NCBI RefSeq assembly: GCF_000173615.1
Contig: NZ_ABZS01000001.1
Span: forward strand, 1-17,500
Length of the DNA stretch: 17,500 bases
Direction: 5' to 3'
Source of the DNA: Sulfurihydrogenibium yellowstonense SS-5
GTDB lineage: Bacteria > Aquificota > Aquificia > Aquificales > Hydrogenothermaceae
The notes beneath the pieces are model-generated. The model had not been told where the DNA came from. It did no database searches and worked only from the letters and a program-made list of their open reading frames with translations. Positions within the stretch are counted from its first letter, which is position 1, and each line of letters starts with the position of its first letter. The position numbers were made by a program, and so were the translations under genes. Below, piece by piece: positions 1-17,176 of the stretch.

Positions 1-302
1 TGACCGATTGAAATTATATCTAATCTTCTGAATTTCTTTTGGCTATCTATTTTCCTTGATAAATAAAAGGAAATTGCAGAAAACGTATGGGCAGAGATAT
101 TGTTTCTATAACCTTTTACAATAACATCTTTTTCTCCGTCTCCATCTAAATCAATATAATCTATACCATTGGAAATAAAGGTTGACCAAGTTATATTTTG
201 CTTTAAAGTTTTTATTTTTTCTCTCTCCCCACTAAATCCATGCTTTGGCAAAATAAACAGTATAAAAACTAATAAAATCCAGAAAATTTTGAGCCTTCTC
301 AT
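1..302 (-). CDS. Exported protein with FG-GAP-like calcium motif, 3' end outside window
   Basis: The first 100 codons of a minus-strand gene are visible; the stop lies beyond the window edge. The start is the ATG at 302-300, preceded by a GGAGAG ribosome site. Residues 1-24 form a signal peptide (MRRLKIFWILL, ending near GFS-G) almost identical to that of the next gene upstream. At residues 51-59 the protein reads DLDGDGEKD, the D-x-D-x-D-G calcium loop typical of FG-GAP/VCBS-type repeats, followed by a short beta strand (VIVKG). That suggests a secreted or surface beta-propeller-like protein, but only one repeat is visible and the function is unknown. It is the last visible member of the array of leader-sharing genes that begins at 4735. 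Confidence 0.7.
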   Translation of the reverse strand, partial: MRRLKIFWILLVFILFILPKHGFSGEREKIKTLKQNITWSTFISNGIDYIDLDGDGEKDVIVKGYRNNISAHTFSAISFYLSRKIDSQKKFRRLDIISIG

Positions 303-355
303 GTGCGTTCTCTCTCCATTCCTATTCTCTCAGAACTTTAAATTCTTAAGCAATT
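241..355 (-). repeat. Leader DNA repeat, copy 1 (signal peptide plus upstream spacer)
   Basis: About 115 bases covering the signal-peptide codons of the gene at 1-302 and the non-coding DNA upstream of it. They are nearly identical to positions 894-1008, at a constant offset of 653 bases. Similarity includes the ribosome site and about 50 bases of spacer, so it is not explained by protein selection alone. Confidence 0.85.
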
Positions 356-358
356 ACC

Positions 359-955
359 TTACTTTACCTCCTTTGCACATTTTTTTAGTTTTCTCATATC
401 TTCAATTAATTCCTTTTTTGGTCCAAGATGTTTATTTTTGTCATAATGTTGTAGTATATATTTATAAAATTCAATTGTTTTTTGGATAGACATCCAGTGA
501 CCACACGGAAAAGGAGGCTCCTCTGGCGGACTATCCCATACTATTTTCCAAGTATTGTTTATTTTAATAAGCTTATAAACTTTGATTTCTGTATCTTTAC
601 CAATTTCACAGGATCCATCGTTTGCACATACTCCACAGAAATCATGTTTTACTGTTACTTCTGCTGTATTATCTTTTATTGATGTTTTTAAAATAGATAT
701 ATTGGCTAAGATATCTACTCCGCCGCCCCATTTTTCATCTAAGTATTTCTCTCCATTAAGAATAAACTTTACTACATCTTTACAATAATTAGGATTATTA
801 TCAATAAAACTTGTATTAGCTCTATTTATTATAAATTGCTTAACAACTTCTTCTGGTTTTGTAAAATCTTTATTATTTTCTTCACTATATCCTTGCTTTG
901 GTAAAATAAACAATATAAAAACCAACAAAATCCAGAAAATTTTGAGCCTTCTCAT
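359..955 (-). CDS. Secreted cysteine-containing protein, paralogue A
   Basis: A 198-residue exported protein of unknown function. I place the start at the ATG at 955-953 (MRRLKIFWILL) because a GGAGAG ribosome site lies just before it and the family leader begins there; a longer reading frame upstream is the repeated non-coding leader DNA. The signal peptide is residues 1-24. The mature part starts with KPEEVVKQF, then NYCKDVVKFILNGEKYLD, a beta-rich middle, a TWKIVWDSPP strand, PFPC, and a C-terminal helix ending KKCAKEVK. The helix-then-beta layout and the TWKIV strand recall NTF2-like folds, which is only a guess. It has six cysteines after the leader, including a C-x(2)-C and a nearby extra Cys absent from its neighbour, so disulfides are likely. 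It is a clear tandem duplicate of the gene at 1017-1610. Confidence 0.85.
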   Translation of the reverse strand: MRRLKIFWILLVFILFILPKQGYSEENNKDFTKPEEVVKQFIINRANTSFIDNNPNYCKDVVKFILNGEKYLDEKWGGGVDILANISILKTSIKDNTAEVTVKHDFCGVCANDGSCEIGKDTEIKVYKLIKINNTWKIVWDSPPEEPPFPCGHWMSIQKTIEFYKYILQHYDKNKHLGPKKELIEDMRKLKKCAKEVK

Positions 956-1008
956 GTGCGTTCTCTCTCCATTCCTACTCTCCCAGAACTTCAAACTCTT
1001 AAACAATT
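894..1008 (-). repeat. Leader DNA repeat, copy 2
   Basis: The second copy of the repeat at 241-355, spanning the signal-peptide codons of the gene at 359-955 and its upstream spacer. Shorter versions covering only the leader codons recur at about 1560-1610, 2400-2453 and 4681-4735. This suggests duplication or gene conversion of the 5' ends. Confidence 0.85.
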
Positions 1009-1016
1009 GCATCATT

Positions 1017-1610
1017 TTACTCCTTTGCACATTTTTTTATTTTTTTCATATCCTTAATTAATTTCTTTTTTGGTCCAAGGTATTTATATTCGTTGTAATG
1101 TTGCAATATATATTCATAAAGTTTAATTGCCTTTGGGACAGATATCCAATCATCACATGGAAAAGGGGGTTCATCTGGCGGACTATCCCATACTATTTTC
1201 CATGTGTTATCCACTTTGACAAGGTTGTATACTACAATCTCTGTCCATTTAGCAGGCCCTCCACTCAAATCACCTGATAATCCGCCGCAAAATTTAAGTT
1301 TTACTTTTACTTTAGCAGTATTCCCTTTTATTGATACATCTAAGATAGAAAAGTTTCCCAAAATATCTAATCCAGCTCCTAAAACTTGGTCTAAATACTT
1401 CTCTCCATTAAGAATAAACTTTACTACATCTTTACAATAATTAGGATTATTATCGATAAAATTTGATATGTTAGCTCTATTTATTATAAATTGCTTTACA
1501 ACTTCTTCTGGCTTTGTAAAATCTTTGGTTTTATCCTCACCATATCCTTGTTTTGATAAAATAAATAATATAAAAACTAATAAAATCCAGAAAATTTTAA
1601 ATCTCATCAT
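1017..1610 (-). CDS. Secreted cysteine-containing protein, paralogue B
   Basis: A 197-residue exported protein, closely related over its whole length to the product of 359-955. The start is the first of two adjacent ATGs (MMRFKIFWILL), seven bases after AAGGAG. The signal peptide is residues 1-25. Shared blocks are KPEEVVKQFIINRAN, NYCKDVVKFILNGEKYLD, the TWKIVWDSPP strand, PPFPC and the terminal KKCAKE helix. It keeps four cysteines (NYC, KFC, FPC, KKC) and lacks the extra Cys pair of paralogue A, where the loop reads GLSGDLSGG instead. The even cysteine count fits two disulfides. The function is unknown. It lies 61 bases upstream of paralogue A and 27 bases downstream of the gene at 1638-2453, so it is probably in the same transcript. 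Confidence 0.85.
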   Translation of the reverse strand: MMRFKIFWILLVFILFILSKQGYGEDKTKDFTKPEEVVKQFIINRANISNFIDNNPNYCKDVVKFILNGEKYLDQVLGAGLDILGNFSILDVSIKGNTAKVKVKLKFCGGLSGDLSGGPAKWTEIVVYNLVKVDNTWKIVWDSPPDEPPFPCDDWISVPKAIKLYEYILQHYNEYKYLGPKKKLIKDMKKIKKCAKE

Positions 1611-1637
1611 ATCTATTCTCCTTTTTAAATAAAATTT

Positions 1638-2453
1638 CTAATTACTCATTGTGGTTAGCTTTGTTTGATAAGTTTGCTTCCGTTGGCATTTCTTAACCTC
1701 CTTTTTTATTTTTTCAAGCTCTTTTATTACTGTCAGAATTTCTTTTTTTATTTTTGGTGTAATAATATCTGGAATTACTTCGCTTATATAATTTTGAGGA
1801 TCTTCGTCAGCTGCTTGTAAATATACAACTTTATACTGTTTGATTATTGCACAAACAGGTACAGGCAATAAATATAAATCTATTTTTGTTATTTTTGCGG
1901 ATGGAAAAAACAATCTCCACCCTTTATCAGTTTTTATAAAATAATAGTCTATTATCTCTTTACCTTTTTCAAAGCAAAATCCTGCTTTACATCCTTTTTT
2001 CGAATGATACAGTATACCTATATGAAATTTTCCAATTTTTGTATATGAAACTTTGACTATTTTTAAATTAACATTTTTAATGTTTATAAACTTCGTATTA
2101 ATAATTTTATAATTTCTAAAAATTATATAACTTTGATAACTAAAAGCATCAGGCGTACCTTCAAGAATTAAACCTGTTTTAACAAGTTTATCTTCAAGAT
2201 TATTTTCATCCTTTTCTTGTTTTTTGTTCCAGTATTCAGAAGGAAAGATGAATTTTTCTAACCCATACCTCTGAACAATTGCCCCCCAAACAGTCCCGTC
2301 CATATTTTCATCACTACAATAGTTATATCCTGCATCATGTAACACTTTTATAATCTCTTCAGGAGTGTACTCTTTTTTCTCCTCAAACCCCTGTACAGGC
2401 AGAATAAACAACATAAAAACCAACAAAATCCAGAAAATTTTGAGCCTTCTCAT
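1638..2453 (-). CDS. Secreted protein, distant relative of paralogues A and B
   Basis: A 271-residue exported protein of unknown function. The start is the ATG at 2453-2451; GAGGGG sits six bases before it, whereas the ATG two codons earlier would abut the ribosome site. The leader MRRLKIFWILLVFMLF is the family leader. The body is longer than A and B but keeps the same order of landmarks: TPEEIIK, then YNYC, a KGCKAGFC pair in a beta region, a strand KTDKGWRLFF matching TWKIVW, then PVC, and a lysine-rich C-terminal helix with KKC. I infer a shared fold with large insertions. It has five cysteines after the leader. It is separated by 62 bases from the frameshifted gene upstream. Confidence 0.8.
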   Translation of the reverse strand: MRRLKIFWILLVFMLFILPVQGFEEKKEYTPEEIIKVLHDAGYNYCSDENMDGTVWGAIVQRYGLEKFIFPSEYWNKKQEKDENNLEDKLVKTGLILEGTPDAFSYQSYIIFRNYKIINTKFINIKNVNLKIVKVSYTKIGKFHIGILYHSKKGCKAGFCFEKGKEIIDYYFIKTDKGWRLFFPSAKITKIDLYLLPVPVCAIIKQYKVVYLQAADEDPQNYISEVIPDIITPKIKKEILTVIKELEKIKKEVKKCQRKQTYQTKLTTMSN

Positions 2454-2491
2454 ATGCATCCCCTCTTTTTTAATTAAAAGCAATAATCATT

Positions 2492-2535
2492 TTTGACTTT
2501 AATACAAACCATCCCTTATCTATAAGTTATTATTA
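2492..2535 (-). repeat. Shared 3'-end/spacer module, copy 1
   Basis: It covers the last codons of the propeller-like gene (ending ITYR-stop) and part of the spacer. It aligns without gaps to 4744-4787, with about three quarters of bases identical, including TTTGACTTTAATA on the plus strand and the block around the stop codon. Confidence 0.65.
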
Positions 2536-3632
2536 CAATTCTATCCTTCAAAAGATAAGCTAAACTATTTCCTGTTACCGAAGATTGAGTAAAACAATAA
2601 GAGCATGGTTTTTCACTAAAAAATGGATTTACATTAGCAATTTTGCTATGATATTTTGCAAATAATTCTTTTTCCTTGCTCGGAAAATAGTAGTAGTATA
2701 AATAATCGTAATCTTTTTTATTTTCCGCATAAATTAAAACCTGAGATGAAATGACTTTAAAGTCTGATAAACTCGGCACATCTATAGTATAGTTTGGCTT
2801 TATAGTTTTTCCTTTTTCCGATTTTAAAATAGAGTTGATATCCCAGCATAATATAAAAAACTTGTTGTTTTTATAGTCATAATCACAAAGGATTTGGTGG
2901 TCTATGTAATTAGAAAATCTTAAATCACTTTTACCCAACTCTGTAAGTTTATTAAGTTGATAATCATAAATATAAAATTTTCCAGTTTTATACATCAATA
3001 GCTTATTATCAGGTAAAATATAAAGAACTTTCCAGTTTGCATCAAATGAATTAGGTATTCTAATTAGCTTAATTCCATCCCATTTTTAAAAATTGATTAT
3101 CTATGTATGATTTATTATTAATGCTAACTATAAGCGTATTGTCTAAAGCATCAAAGGCTTTAAATTCGATATTTGCAAGAATTTTTTTAATTTCACCAGT
3201 TCTTAAATTTAAAGCGTATATGTAATCATTTTCAAAAGTTTTTAAATAAACCGTATCTGTTTTTGAAGCACATCCTATAATATCGTAAATATTTTCTATA
3301 GGTATGTTTATTTCTTTAACTTTCATTTTTTGAGTGTTATTATATTGAAACAGATCAATATCTTTTAATGAGATAATCCTTAACTTCTTTTGAAGTGATT
3401 CTGCACTGTTTCCAATAACTAATGTATCATCACCGCACCATGTCATTGGTGTACCGGGTTCAATATATGCAAAAATTTGATATTCTATCTTATCTTTATC
3501 AACTTTTATTTTTAAATTAACACTCTTTTCATCAAAAACTGATTTTTCGTTTTTCTCTTTTCCGAACCCTTGTCCCTGCAAAAAAACTACTACAAAAATC
3601 AGCACTACCCAAAACTTCCTAAACCATCTCAT
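2516..3632 (-). pseudogene. Exported beta-rich (propeller-like) protein split by a frameshift
   Basis: Two consecutive open stretches (3632-3069 and about 3087-2516) join into one protein of about 370 residues if one base is removed near 3083-3092, where the minus strand reads TTTTTAAAAA. The reading then passes from NQFLK to WDGIKLIRIPNSF without loss, and the stretch between the two open frames becomes coding. The start is the ATG at 3632 after AAGGAG, giving the leader MRWFRKFWVVLIF. The body has many short beta strands with turn motifs such as ALNLRTGEIKKIL and YIYDYQLNKLTEL, typical of beta-propeller proteins, and six cysteines including C-x(2)-C near the end. The function is unknown. 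The break could be a real mutation or a base-call error in a homopolymer. Confidence 0.7.
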
Positions 3633-3679
3633 ATATGTCTCCTTTCCAGCTTTATTTAACATTGCTATACAGAAAGCCC

Positions 3680-4252
3680 TTATCTACTTTCTGTTGATAA
3701 ATTTACATCCTTAGAGCTTACTTTTTCCAATTTTAATTTACTAAAAATTTCTCTATATTTTTTAACGACTTCATTAAAATTCTTACTTTCAATAACTTTA
3801 GTAGAACCATGTTTATAAATTACTCTGAACTTTTTTCTATCTGTAGCTACCAAATTACCATTAATGTCATACAACTCGTAATATTCACAAGCAGAACAAT
3901 TGCCTAAATTAGAATAGTATAGCTCAATAAACCATTTGTTATTTTTACTCTTATAGCATGTTATTTCAGAAATTGAATGATCTAATTTTAGCAAAGTTGA
4001 AGATGAAACTATTTTCTTACTCCTGATAATAATATATTGGCTATCTGATAAGCAAGGTAAATAAGGTTTTTCTTTATAAATACAGTGTGTAATTACCTTA
4101 ACATCAACCCCTCCACAACTAAAATCTGTTTGAACTGTATAGTTTTGTTTAATATTCTCACCCCAACTTTGCCCCTGCAAAACAATTAATATAAAAATTG
4201 ATATTACCCAAAAATTTTTAAACTTTTTCAATCGATATGCTATATCAAGCAT
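3680..4252 (-). CDS. Secreted cysteine-rich protein of unknown function
   Basis: A 190-residue exported protein. The ATG at 4252 directly follows the stop of the upstream gene, so translation may be coupled. Seven codons in there is a TTG whose following residues (LKKFKNFWVISIF) align with the leader of the neighbour at 2516-3632 (MRWFRKFWVVLIF), so the true start may be that TTG; no clear ribosome site decides between them. The mature part has six cysteines: FSCGG, THC, LPC, ITC and a C-x(2)-C in GNCSACEYY. It is followed by a strand YELYDINGNLVATD and a charged C-terminal helix. I recognise no family. The cysteines suggest disulfide-stabilised secretion. Confidence 0.75.
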   Translation of the reverse strand: MLDIAYRLKKFKNFWVISIFILIVLQGQSWGENIKQNYTVQTDFSCGGVDVKVITHCIYKEKPYLPCLSDSQYIIIRSKKIVSSSTLLKLDHSISEITCYKSKNNKWFIELYYSNLGNCSACEYYELYDINGNLVATDRKKFRVIYKHGSTKVIESKNFNEVVKKYREIFSKLKLEKVSSKDVNLSTESR

Positions 4253-4735
4253 TTACTTATTTTTAACCCTCTTATTTAGTTTAAAATGTTCTTTTCTATC
4301 TAACTGCCATTCTTTTACATAAAAATCATATGCTTCTAACATTTTCACTCTTCTAGAGACTATGTCTAATTTTTCTCCCATTATCATTACTGGAATCATA
4401 GTACCAATTCCTAAGTAAAGATTATCTAAAAACTTAAACTCGGCATCTCTAAATTTAACCCATTGTAGTTGACTTTGTTTTAAAAGTTCCCTTTCTTCTG
4501 GAGAAAGTTTTTTTATTAACTCCTTATAAATTCTATTTAGTTCTTTATCCCACTTATCTAAAGCTTGAGATGAACAGCTTAACATCCCTGCTGTAGTGTA
4601 ATTTTCTCTTTCCATACATTTTTCTAACCATATATCTATCGGATGCTTTTTTTCTTTCTCCTCACTAAATCCTACGGTGGGTAAAATAAGCAATATAAAA
4701 GCTACTAAAAGTCTGGAAATTTTAAGCCTTCTCAT
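4253..4735 (-). CDS. LprI / DUF1311-family exported protein
   Basis: A 160-residue protein with signal peptide MRRLKISRLLVAFILL (about residues 1-24) followed by an LprI-like (DUF1311) domain at about 33-125. Visible family landmarks are C40 and C54 (likely a disulfide), a conserved helix DKWDKELNRIYKELIKKL, then LSPEERELLKQSQ and QWVKFRDAE. Some members of this family inhibit lysozyme in the periplasm; whether this one does is unknown. The start ATG at 4735 has AAGGA five bases upstream. It begins 63 bases after the feoB stop and its own stop touches the start of the next gene. The leader is the family leader, so this gene appears to have been fitted with the same 5' module as its neighbours. 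Confidence 0.85.
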   Translation of the reverse strand: MRRLKISRLLVAFILLILPTVGFSEEKEKKHPIDIWLEKCMERENYTTAGMLSCSSQALDKWDKELNRIYKELIKKLSPEERELLKQSQLQWVKFRDAEFKFLDNLYLGIGTMIPVMIMGEKLDIVSRRVKMLEAYDFYVKEWQLDRKEHFKLNKRVKNK

Positions 4736-4798: not shown

Positions 4799-6925
4799 TC
4801 ACCTAATCAAATTGTAAATTATGAAACTAACAATCCAAGCAGATGTAAAGTTTATCAAAATAGATATAAACATCCATCTATAACTGTTTAGTTCTTGTTT
4901 TATTGCAAAAACTGTTGCAAGACAGGGAGTGTATAAAAGCAAGAAAACTAAAAAAGAGTAAGCTTGAGCAGGTGTAAAGCTTTCTTTTAATACAGAGCCA
5001 AGACCTTTAAACTCATCCTCTTCTTTTTCTGTTTTTACAAGCCCAAAAGTAGAAGCCAAATCTTTAAAAAGACTTACATTAGCATCTATAAAGCCGCTAA
5101 AAATCTCATTTAATCCTTCTTGAAAGGATAAACTTTTCTTTTCTTCTTTCAACTCTTCTCCAACATAAATATTACTCATTGTTGATAGTACTACTTCCTT
5201 AGCTACAAAACCAGAAAATAATGAAGCTGTTGCTTGCCAAGTTCCAAATCCAAGAGGCTCAAAAATTACCGATACTTTTTGAGAAATCTGAGCAAGTAAA
5301 GACTCATCTTTTTTAGCTCCAAAAGGAATGTTTGTTAAAAACCAAACTATGATTGAGGTTGCAAAAATAAACGTTCCAGCTTCAACAATAAAAGATTTTA
5401 CACGTACCCAAGCATTGTTTAGAATGTATTTAAATGTTGGCATTCTGTAAGGTGGTAGCTCTAAAATGAAAACTTCAGACTTTGTCTTAAAATAAAACTT
5501 ATTAAGCAATGTCGCTACGATTACAGCAACTAAAATCCCAATCATATAAAGAGAGAATATAACTAAACCTTTTTGATTTTCAAAGAAAACGCTTACAAAA
5601 AATGCAAAAACGGTTAATCTTGCTCCACAAGACATAAAAGGAATCATTAAAGTTGTAAGGATTTTTTCTTTTTGGCTTTCAATCGTCCTTGTTGCATAAA
5701 CAGCAGGAACGTTGCAACCAAAACCAAGAAGCAGTGGAATAAAAGATTTTCCGCTCAATCCAAAGCTACTCATAAACCTATCCATCAAAAACGCTGCACG
5801 GGATATATACCCACTTCCTTCTAAAAAAGAAATGACTATATACAGCACAAAAAGCACCGGAACAAAAGTAATAACAAATCCAACTCCACCTATTACAGCA
5901 TCTGCCACGAAAGATTTAATAAGCTCCGATGCATTTAAAGACTCTAAAACCTGTAAAGCCCAGATACCAACTACTTCTAAAACTTTGTTTAGAAAATCAA
6001 CGTAAGGAGAAGAAAGTTTAAATGTAATCTCAAAAGAAAGCCAAACCAAAAATAAAAATATCGGAATGCCAAAGTATTTATGTAAAAAGATTTTATCTAA
6101 AAATAATGAACCTTCTACTGTATTAACCGGCTCTTTTTTTACAGTTTGCTCGTAGATGCTTAACACTATCCCGTATCTCTCTTCAATAATCAAAGTTTTA
6201 ACGTCTTTTCCATAGATGCTTTTAATTTTTTCTCTTAATTTTTCTAACTCTTGTGCAAGTGCATCGGAAAGATTATCTTTTAGACTTCCTTCTAAAAGAG
6301 ATACTGCTAAATAGCGTTTAGGATACAAGTTCAAAAGAACAGGTTGATAAATCTCTACAAGTTTTAAAACTTCTTTTAAATACTTCTCAAATTCTACTTC
6401 AAAATGCTCACATTGGACAAACTTTTTATTTTCATATACTTGTATGATTTTGTCTAAAATCTCATCAATTCCAAGCCTTTTTTTAGCTGATGCAGGAATT
6501 ACAGGACTGCATAAAAGATTTTCAAGCTTTTTAAAGTCAACAGATATTCCTTTTTCTACCGCCTCATCCCATATATTTAATACTACTACGATCGGAATCT
6601 CAAACTCTAATAACTGAGTTGTTAGATATAAATTTCTTTTTAGATTTGTAGAGTCTAAGATATTTAAAATCACATCCGGTTTTTCATTTAATAGATAATC
6701 AACCGTTATTTTTTCTTCTGCTGTTTGATTTCTTAGGCTGTAAATACCCGGTAAGTCAACAAATCTGATGATATAATCTTTATATATAATAATTGCTTCT
6801 TTTTTTTCTATTGTGACGCCCGGCCAGTTGCCAACTTTTAAATCAGTTCCGGCAATTTCATTAAGTAGAGCGGTTTTCCCAACGTTTGGGTTCCCTATTA
6901 AAGCAACTTTTATTTCTTTTAACAT
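4799..6925 (-). CDS. feoB: Ferrous iron transporter FeoB
   Basis: The inner-membrane Fe(II) permease with a cytoplasmic GTPase domain, 708 residues. The N-terminal G domain shows G1 GNPNVGKT (11-18), the G2 threonine Thr38 in WPGVT, G3 DLPG (57-60), G4 NIWD (117-120; FeoB proteins use NxxD) and G5 ASAK (145-148). A helical regulator region follows to about residue 270, then the membrane domain with the two Gate motifs. The conserved cysteines are C404 in GFGCNVPA and C433 in MSCGARL. The length fits the short FeoB class, with no C-terminal FeoC-like tail. The start ATG lies behind GTGGAAG and overlaps the end of feoA by seven bases. It is likely iron-repressed through the Fur-like site upstream of feoA. 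Confidence 0.98.
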   Translation of the reverse strand: MLKEIKVALIGNPNVGKTALLNEIAGTDLKVGNWPGVTIEKKEAIIIYKDYIIRFVDLPGIYSLRNQTAEEKITVDYLLNEKPDVILNILDSTNLKRNLYLTTQLLEFEIPIVVVLNIWDEAVEKGISVDFKKLENLLCSPVIPASAKKRLGIDEILDKIIQVYENKKFVQCEHFEVEFEKYLKEVLKLVEIYQPVLLNLYPKRYLAVSLLEGSLKDNLSDALAQELEKLREKIKSIYGKDVKTLIIEERYGIVLSIYEQTVKKEPVNTVEGSLFLDKIFLHKYFGIPIFLFLVWLSFEITFKLSSPYVDFLNKVLEVVGIWALQVLESLNASELIKSFVADAVIGGVGFVITFVPVLFVLYIVISFLEGSGYISRAAFLMDRFMSSFGLSGKSFIPLLLGFGCNVPAVYATRTIESQKEKILTTLMIPFMSCGARLTVFAFFVSVFFENQKGLVIFSLYMIGILVAVIVATLLNKFYFKTKSEVFILELPPYRMPTFKYILNNAWVRVKSFIVEAGTFIFATSIIVWFLTNIPFGAKKDESLLAQISQKVSVIFEPLGFGTWQATASLFSGFVAKEVVLSTMSNIYVGEELKEEKKSLSFQEGLNEIFSGFIDANVSLFKDLASTFGLVKTEKEEDEFKGLGSVLKESFTPAQAYSFLVFLLLYTPCLATVFAIKQELNSYRWMFISILINFTSAWIVSFIIYNLIR

Positions 6926-7149
6926 TTTTCTTCCACCAAGATTTTATAAGCTTCTGTTCTTCTTAGTGCAAGACAATAATCATGAAGTTTTATTTTTATA
7001 GGTCCACCAAAAGGTGCTACTTGTATAAGTTCTAATTCCGTTCCGGGTAGTATACCAAGCTCAAAAAGTTTTAGCTTCAAAGCCTCATCCATATCCACAT
7101 CTTTCACAACAGCCTTACAACCTTCTTTTATATCTAATAGTCTTTTCAT
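6919..7149 (-). CDS. feoA: Ferrous iron transport protein FeoA
   Basis: A 76-residue cytoplasmic SH3-like protein that assists FeoB. Visible family signatures are GCKAVVKDV near residue 10, KLFELGILPGTELELI in the centre (the L-x-x-LG-hhPG motif) and a C-terminal GGPIKIKLHDYCLALRRTEA segment. The start ATG follows AAAGGAAG. It is the first gene of the feo unit, its 3' end overlaps feoB by seven bases, and a Fur-like palindrome lies 15 bases upstream of its start. Confidence 0.96.
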   Translation of the reverse strand: MKRLLDIKEGCKAVVKDVDMDEALKLKLFELGILPGTELELIQVAPFGGPIKIKLHDYCLALRRTEAYKILVEEKC

Positions 7150-16649: not shown

Positions 16650-17176
16650 GAAAAGTTTATATCTTTGTAGCCAAAGATGTAAAAACAAGAATCTCCTTTA
16701 CTTTTGCATATGACAGGCTAAACAGTAAAAATGCGAAAGACTTTTTAGAGAAATTGATAAAAGCAATGCCATTTGAGATAAAAGGTATACAAACAGATAA
16801 TGGCAGTGAATTCTTAGGCGAGTTTACCAAAGCATTAAAGAAAAAAGATATAAAACATTATTTTAACTATCCAAGATATCCAAAAGGGCAGGCATATGTA
16901 GAGAGAATGAATAGGACATTACAGGATGAATTTATCATGTACTACGAAGATTATGAATTAAAAGATGTTTATGAGTTTAATAAAAAAATGATGGAGTATA
17001 TGCTATGGTATAACATAGAAAGACCTCATCATAGTTTAAACAAAAAATCACCTTTACAATACTTTTGTGATATTATAAATTCAAGAAAATCGGAATTTTC
17101 CCAAACTGGTATAACCTATACACAAAAAATCAGCTTGACAAAAGAAATCAAAAGTGATAGAATTTTTATCTGCTAA
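16650..17176 (+). pseudogene. Integrase-core transposase, 5'-truncated
   Basis: In frame from about 16650 it reads RKVYIFVAKDVKTRISFTFA, then the rve core motif GIQTDNGSEF (second catalytic Asp), YPKGQAYVERMNRTLQDEF (catalytic Glu region) and WYNIERPHHSLNKKSPLQYF. This is the DDE integrase core of IS3/IS481-type transposases. The N-terminal HTH part and the first catalytic Asp are missing, and no valid start remains (a TTG at 16754 is internal). Typical family sequence ends near 17090; the last 25 or so codons are read-through into the rRNA promoter, not transposase. Confidence 0.85.
17135..17163 (+). promoter_or_regulatory. Strong sigma-70-type promoter of the rRNA operon
   Basis: TTGACA (17135-17140), a 17-base spacer, then TAGAAT (17158-17163): a perfect -35 and near-consensus -10 at ideal spacing, about 85 bases before 16S. 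The leader between contains GACCT (17195-17199) and AGGTC (17233-17237), a possible small stem. The promoter lies inside the open end of the transposase relic. Confidence 0.8.

Follow-up and report, generated by a model that had tools for sequence, protein, structure and literature searches.

Heterogeneous polyimmunity loci have been described as tandem, same-strand and close-set genes for unrelated immunity proteins, toxin-free between the genes and variable in content from strain to strain (Zhang et al. 2012, PMC3482391). Orphan immunity gene arrays directed against toxins made by others are also known from the rAID system, where SUKH-domain proteins are encoded and a recombinase is associated. 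Regarding the individual families, a predicted LprI immunity protein with a signal peptide was reported beside a LysM/transglycosylase effector of the type VI secretion system (PMC8867033), LprI proteins flank WHIX effectors (PMC12135965), and the periplasmic inhibitors PliI and Tsi1 (from crystals), as well as XAC2610 (from a model), insert a loop into peptidoglycan hydrolases (PMC10933484). The locus considered here belongs to Sulfurihydrogenibium yellowstonense SS-5 and lies in the window, i.e. the 17,500 nucleotides (nt) analysed at the start of a contig of this draft genome (G000:C228:1-17500, G000 designating the genome of the window). From 4735 to 1 on the minus strand, directly downstream of feoAB, seven consecutive genes carry related predicted signal peptides, hereafter leaders, in front of different bodies (Table 1). 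The locus is probably a heterogeneous orphan array, whose products would confer immunity in the periplasm against peptidoglycan-cutting toxins of neighbouring bacteria and, perhaps, against other envelope-targeting toxins.

In sequence terms, most of the features compared are those of a heterogeneous polyimmunity locus. The seven genes share one orientation with gaps of only 0, 47, 62, 27, 61 and 56 nt, the content varies between strains, and G000 shows no toxin match between the genes, whereas a distant genome, G098, has two presumed toxin genes inside. As for unrelated immunity proteins, LprI and CarG-like are different families, but the immunity role of these two and of the body type labelled SCGG is a prediction drawn from G098, which does not extend to the other bodies. 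The proteins look exported here and share one leader as an apparent exchange module, whereas the polyimmunity section of PMC3482391 describes neither a shared leader nor a toxin-tail junction; as to hosts, the extended loci given there come only from proteobacteria, bacteroidetes, firmicutes and actinobacteria, while the present one has its relatives among Aquificota genera. In contrast to the rAID system, the array encodes signal-peptide proteins rather than SUKH-domain proteins, and no recombinase was seen by eye among the adjoining open reading frames (ORFs), no recombinase family search having been made; the text of the rAID paper makes no mention of signal peptide, signal sequence, recombination, gene conversion, leader or periplasm. 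As in the type VI secretion pairs, the LprI protein has a predicted signal peptide, but it stands in a toxin-free array in the window, and in G098 it follows a protein with a glycine-rich stretch and no LysM rather than a LysM effector as in the published pair (PMC8867033). Like XAC2610 (paired with XAC2609), PliI and Tsi1, the array proteins would be periplasmic inhibitors of peptidoglycan hydrolases, and the CarG-like bodies gave weak echoes of PliI and XAC2610, but no array body matched these inhibitors over cut-off and the fold model of the CarG-like body FG was too poor to compare. Among the titles and abstract beginnings surveyed, no published description of such an array or of its mechanism was found.

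The leader was compared at the DNA level over 72 nt in its eight copies in G000 (28 pairs), with eight other gene starts of signal-peptide- or membrane-like appearance by eye as controls, one of which (w10161) is set one codon past the start. Identities range from 0.51 to 0.92 and every pair stands above all controls, the 64 cassette-control pairs reaching 0.49 at most (mean 0.38) and the 28 control-control pairs 0.47. A preceding sequence-only reading had proposed seven consecutive minus-strand genes with related leaders, five of them alike at the DNA level, and both statements hold, the five genes of the MRRLK type being 0.67-0.92 identical. Along 14 cross-body pairs of this type, one of which is the pair FG-CFG of two distantly related bodies (28-31% identity), mean identity is 0.32-0.37 upstream of -15 and 0.51 from -15 to -1, then 0.87, 0.85, 0.80, 0.71 and 0.70 along the leader, 0.50 at +75, and 0.29-0.33, that is background, from +90; the likeness thus starts at the start codon and stops near +80 nt. 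At positions sharing an amino acid, codons match in 382 of 609 cases for 287 expected from codon usage, as summed over the within-genome cross-body pairs of G000, G036, G038 and G094, FG-CFG pairs and a G000 SCGG row one codon out of register included. Chance or codon bias as the origin of the likeness is ruled out by the controls, the identity profile and the synonymous codon match. The leaders fall into an MRRLKIFW and an MRWFRKFW type, some having a mosaic appearance by eye, such as the SCGG leader of G094, which begins as the former and finishes as the latter. Leader DNA matches below 1e-9 are confined to G000, G036 and G038, and weak short ones (E <=0.1) occur in 39 of the 41 genomes of the family. 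The leader is probably a Sec-type signal peptide and the gene products would be exported.

The comparison covered 112 genomes of the order, including seven of the genus, and protein records (numbered with P), those of metagenomes among them, and these reveal that bodies and leaders have been reassorted. The KDF bodies of P0017 and P0018 are 95% identical over 171 residues behind leaders of two different types (46% identity), the FG bodies of P0034 and P0035 are 89% identical behind leaders 46% identical, and P0037 shares 131 of 135 body residues with the LprI protein of the window for a leader identity of 62.5%. Conversely, a single 24-residue leader is found on KDF (P0017), CarG-like (P0041), SCGG-B (P0048) and Ivy-like (P0053, P0054) proteins, and leaders at least 95% identical were counted in 69 of 1438 cross-body pairs (FG-CFG pairs excluded). 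Of the 64 proteins kept, a set partly retrieved by leader similarity, 23 have their closest leader within their own family and 23 in a different one, with ties for 18. At the DNA level, the KDF end, a spacer of 56-61 nt and the next leader are alike from KDF1 to KDF2, from KDF2 to FG and, in G038, from KDF to the body named prop398; a single junction therefore precedes three distinct bodies, in agreement with the proposal of different bodies mounted behind a common 5' module. Unequal crossing-over between leaders would yield both this shared junction and the KDF tandem pair. From these comparisons, leader exchange between bodies appears real, though not free.

Regarding the bodies themselves, KDF1 and KDF2 are paralogues and the seven window genes therefore hold six body types. 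Leader gene 1 is with certainty, by family, a member of LprI (PF07007, E 6e-20, 72 bits for a curated cut-off of 22), with the solved relative 6ar7 at E 5e-13; when genome contigs were scanned with LprI, a single relative (36% identity) came up, from a cyanobacterial record. Both FG and CFG are CarG-like (PF21955, cut-off 28), with 34.2 bits for the FG copy of G036, 33.3 bits for CFG and 23.5 bits, below the cut-off, for the incomplete FG copy of the window; the FG profile matches CarG (4o7j) at E 5.5e-5. A search with residues 1-40 of P0036 yielded 37 proteins, including P0053, which matches Ivy (PF08816) at 25.9 bits for a cut-off of 21, P0054 remaining below at 16; neither is encoded in the window. 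Their two-sequence profile against solved Ivy was not significant (E 0.64), its CKxHxC being aligned to CKPHDC, the inhibitory loop of Ivy. Both proteins, 318 and 327 residues long, combine the array leader, an N-terminal part without assigned family and an Ivy-like C-terminal domain. No Pfam family over its cut-off was found for the SCGG, KDF, DAGY and propeller-like bodies, the last name being a label of the sequence-only reading, and profile comparison with solved structures left KDF without any hit and SCGG with a single one of chance appearance (E 0.98). AlphaFold models were too poor for comparison (pLDDT, the predicted local distance difference test, of 60 for KDF and 56 for FG), and Foldseek found no match to them at E 0.001 or better, several NTF2-like proteins (E 0.009-0.08) standing in the top ten of the poor KDF model. 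Most bodies do carry four to six cysteines, as had been noted, LprI and FG having two.

Fast-changing surface or secreted proteins, for antigenic variation or metal handling, could also be imagined from the common leader, the changing bodies and the adjoining feoAB. This explanation, raised at the outset as surface variation and as metal handling, is hardly credible in either form: two of the body types belong to families of inhibitors or of resistance proteins, homologues of three bodies stand next to toxin-like genes, and none of the metal or adhesin families came over its cut-off among the array bodies. The neighbouring feoAB is the sole iron link, and eleven array proteins have no match within the 16-18 kb fetched around feoB in four of the seven genus genomes. 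A role in defence, suggested along with them, is by contrast likely, in view of the inhibitor families and of the toxin-like neighbours in G098.

G098 is a complete genome of another family, in which an island of 28-39% guanine plus cytosine (GC) inside a 42-48% GC region holds a homologue of the window LprI protein (56% identity) together with homologues of SCGG and of the CarG-like body, further SCGG homologues being present in G036, G038 and G094. Its toxin1 protein is endolysin-like over residues 27-159 (phrog_873, E 2e-16), with LysM at E 2e-20 and Gp29 (9vvp) at E 1.6e-5, and also carries the segment DPLVIDLDGDGIELT, hereafter the DLDGDG segment, which toxin2 shares together with a glycine-rich stretch seen by eye and no LysM; both are presumably toxins. 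The former ends in QRRVWG and overlaps, through its stop codon, the ATG of SCGG; the latter ends in QRRVWV and overlaps that of LprI in the same way (ATGA in both cases), these ATG starts having been chosen by hand where the ORF list begins two codons earlier at GTG; the CarG-like gene sits 2 nt before toxin1. A similar tail sequence precedes the CarG-like, propeller-like and n315 genes without any toxin gene. The junction CAAAGGAGGGTGTGGGTATG, searched with up to three mismatches, occurs in five copies (0-2 mismatches) in the 19-kb G098 stretch, always where a leader gene begins, for 0.00 expected. Five of the six leader genes thus start at a toxin-tail junction, with an open toxin gene ahead in two cases, and the element common to these five is this stretch, immediately ahead of the start codon and including it; we read them as five immunity genes, each of which would once have stood behind a toxin. 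Across the 112 genomes, the 18-nt core of the junction (up to one mismatch) was found five times in G098 and once in G090, a reversed control giving three in total. The LprI, SCGG and CarG-like homologues of G098 have another leader. For these three bodies, independent leaders in a distant genome, which the sequence-only reading had named as counter-evidence, were thus observed; this restricts the cassette model without overturning it, only three of the 14 cross-body leader pairs of G098 being alike in DNA.

The LprI and Ivy-like families are named as lysozyme inhibitors and the toxin1 domain resembles phage endolysins, and the array could accordingly target the endolysins of phages, or else lysozymes made in the mat by predatory bacteria or grazing eukaryotes. 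We consider this unlikely, given that in G098 the overlapping ends of SCGG and LprI directly behind toxin-like genes, and the 2-nt spacing of the CarG-like gene ahead of one, make the layout of toxin-immunity pairs. PADLOC, searched for anti-phage system families, gave no match at E 0.01 for nine array proteins.

Within the genus, the whole locus is bracketed by feoAB and lpdA, the lpdA side lying on contig C49 (L065), which opens at 3-284 with the apparent end of FG, as judged from the full copy in the complete genome G036, where the same two flanks are found. Between them, G036 holds just two leader genes (SCGG and FG) for eight in G000, with a 25-residue propeller-like piece (84% identity) between the two, so that at least the propeller-like gene has been lost there; in G038, the array genes are spread over three contigs. 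The expectation of bodies changing between strains inside constant flanks is borne out as to the fast change and the flanks of G036, but most bodies of the genus are homologues that persist, are gained or lost, and decay, not one slot filled with wholly new bodies. CarG-like genes are present in five of the 112 genomes (G000, G036, G038, G094 and G098; three over cut-off) and SCGG in the identical five. In G094, five leader genes (one truncated) have 27-35% GC beside a transposase-like gene and genes of 41-50% GC, and the CarG-like protein appears to be the same as P0046, labelled Thermocrinis in the public record, which suggests transfer between families; the contig may also be chimeric. The transposase-like gene (L083:3558-4145) follows the array and stands, by eye, between it and housekeeping genes of normal GC.

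Ivy inhibits lytic transglycosylases, and the proteins would be periplasmic, two points in favour of duplicated and diversified housekeeping brakes on the lytic transglycosylases of the cell itself. Such brakes are nonetheless quite improbable: CarG-like, SCGG, KDF, DAGY and prop398 are unmatched in four of the seven genus genomes (LprI was not searched genome-wide), which, with the two genes of G036, makes the array dispensable.

For the orphan immunity array, a mechanism can be outlined. Each gene would fuse a Sec-type signal peptide to a different inhibitor body, which, once in the periplasm, would bind toxins arriving from outside and plug their active sites, as other periplasmic inhibitors do. 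Ancestrally, the immunity gene would stand right behind its toxin gene, its start codon overlapping the toxin stop codon, and the constant toxin tail together with the constant start of the immunity gene would form one junction between variable toxin domains and variable bodies. Homologous recombination in this junction would import new toxin-immunity pairs, the old antidotes remaining while the toxins decay, and later recombination in the leader alone would swap, duplicate or delete bodies. In the genus of the window, the toxins would have been lost and a row of antidotes left, with leaders still recombining. More tentative than the immunity function, and possible rather than probable, is the further proposal that the signal-peptide coding sequence acts as a recombination handle, the incoming toxin-immunity unit recombining into the junction, leaving its antidote and passing between bacterial families, i.e. 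a capture system without recombinase. The genus spacers were also considered as remnants of toxin tails, for which no support was found.

Several observations weigh against this interpretation. The PliI and XAC2610 echoes in the CarG-like bodies, at E 0.16 and 0.018, do not reach significance or the cut-off, and the name CarG derives from carbapenem resistance. KDF and DAGY were found only in G000 and G038, and prop398 only in G038 and G094, rows from further genomes being read as covering the leader end only; in the 112 genomes these three bodies are never beside a toxin and have no toxin link, so that the same immunity job for KDF, DAGY and the propeller-like bodies is an extrapolation from the other members. 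The propeller-like bodies of the window and of G098 are at best putative homologues, and the match of the second half of the G038 gene to the G091 propeller-like protein (E 7e-4) was obtained without composition correction. While toxin2 matches occur in 21 of the 112 genomes, mostly over the DLDGDG segment, none is in the seven genus genomes, and the genus loci gave no toxin match better than E 0.15, toxin1 having been searched in ten loci and not in whole genomes. In G098, SCGG2 has no junction, and leader DNA is alike in only three of 14 cross-body pairs (n315/SCGG2, 0.85; n315/LprI and LprI/SCGG2, 0.72 each), the other 11 being at control level (0.33-0.49). Part of the array may be decaying, because some genes are broken, namely the propeller-like gene in G000 and G038 and DAGY and LprI in G038. 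Finally, the search by leader through which the Ivy-like body and others were found is biased towards similar leaders; of the 34 KDF and FG proteins found by body, a fairer set because part of the 64 had been found by leader, 22 have their closest leader inside their own family and five outside it, with ties for seven. This preponderance of own-family leaders also speaks for leaders alike through one-time duplication followed by divergence of the bodies, or through signal-peptide convergence, with no later exchange. Such an origin is very unlikely in the face of the same body behind different leader types, identical leaders on unrelated bodies, the sharp-edged DNA profile, the synonymous codon match and controls at a mean of 0.38.

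If the immunity array and its mechanism are correct, toxin-immunity warfare and orphan antidote arrays would be placed in deep-branching thermophiles, for which polymorphic toxins were termed relatively rare (PMC3482391). Recombination in a shared leader would then offer a simple mechanism for the growth of immunity repertoires, the nameless families SCGG, KDF and DAGY would receive a predicted function, and the array would be a source of likely thermostable inhibitors of wall hydrolases.

Table 1. Leader genes, spacers and flanks of the array in G000, and order of the related island in G098. Positions refer to the window unless a contig is named.
Feature	Position	Strand	Body cysteines	Remarks
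Leader gene 1, LprI	4735-4253	-	2	predicted signal peptide and LprI domain body, 160 residues
Leader gene 2, SCGG	4252 (or start 4231)-3680	-	6	MRWFRKFW-like leader type
Leader gene 3, propeller-like	3632-2516	-	2+4	two ORFs (3632-3069; 2998-2516); split also in G038
Leader gene 4, DAGY	2453-1638	-	5	271 residues; relatives P0049-P0051 with nearly the same leader
Leader gene 5, KDF1	1610-1017	-	4	homologue search gave 18 proteins, its own included
Leader gene 6, KDF2	955-359	-	6	tandem paralogue of KDF1, 70% protein identity
Leader gene 7, FG	302 to contig end (1)	-	2 (G036 copy)	CarG-like body; gene incomplete
Spacer KDF1/KDF2	956..1016	-		61 nt; junction sequence similar to KDF2/FG spacer
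Spacer KDF2/FG	303..358	-		56 nt; similar spacer and leader at KDF1/KDF2 and at KDF/prop398 in G038
Flank feoB	4799-6925	-		
Flank feoA	6919-7149	-		
Eighth leader gene, CFG	contig C49 (L065) 312-899		4	CarG-like; then lpdA
G098 island				order: CarG-like, toxin1, SCGG, propeller-like, n315, membrane protein, toxin2, LprI, SCGG2

Beyond the array, a few neighbouring features were recorded. The G098 stretch L082:6015-13253 is a toxin-immunity-like island of LysM/endolysin-like and glycine-rich proteins with the DLDGDG segment in common, and is perhaps an undescribed polymorphic toxin type of this order. The DLDGDG segment is also present in a G091 gene near a propeller-like gene and a LysM-type remnant, as well as in a lipase-RTX protein of G004 (L109:2-2326), where a lipase-like domain, the segment and RTX repeats are adjoined by membrane-protein-like ORFs, possibly a further toxin of the DLDGDG type accompanied by immunity genes. 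Two homologous ORFs of membrane-protein-like character, 30% identical to each other, stand beside toxin-like genes or remnants in G091 (L108:6620-7183) and G098 (L082:10371-10949) and may encode inner-membrane immunity proteins. At the far side of the window, an ORF at 16754-17176 is like the end of a transposase, presumably of IS3/IS481 type, and a similar end is found in G038 (L064 6831-7139).

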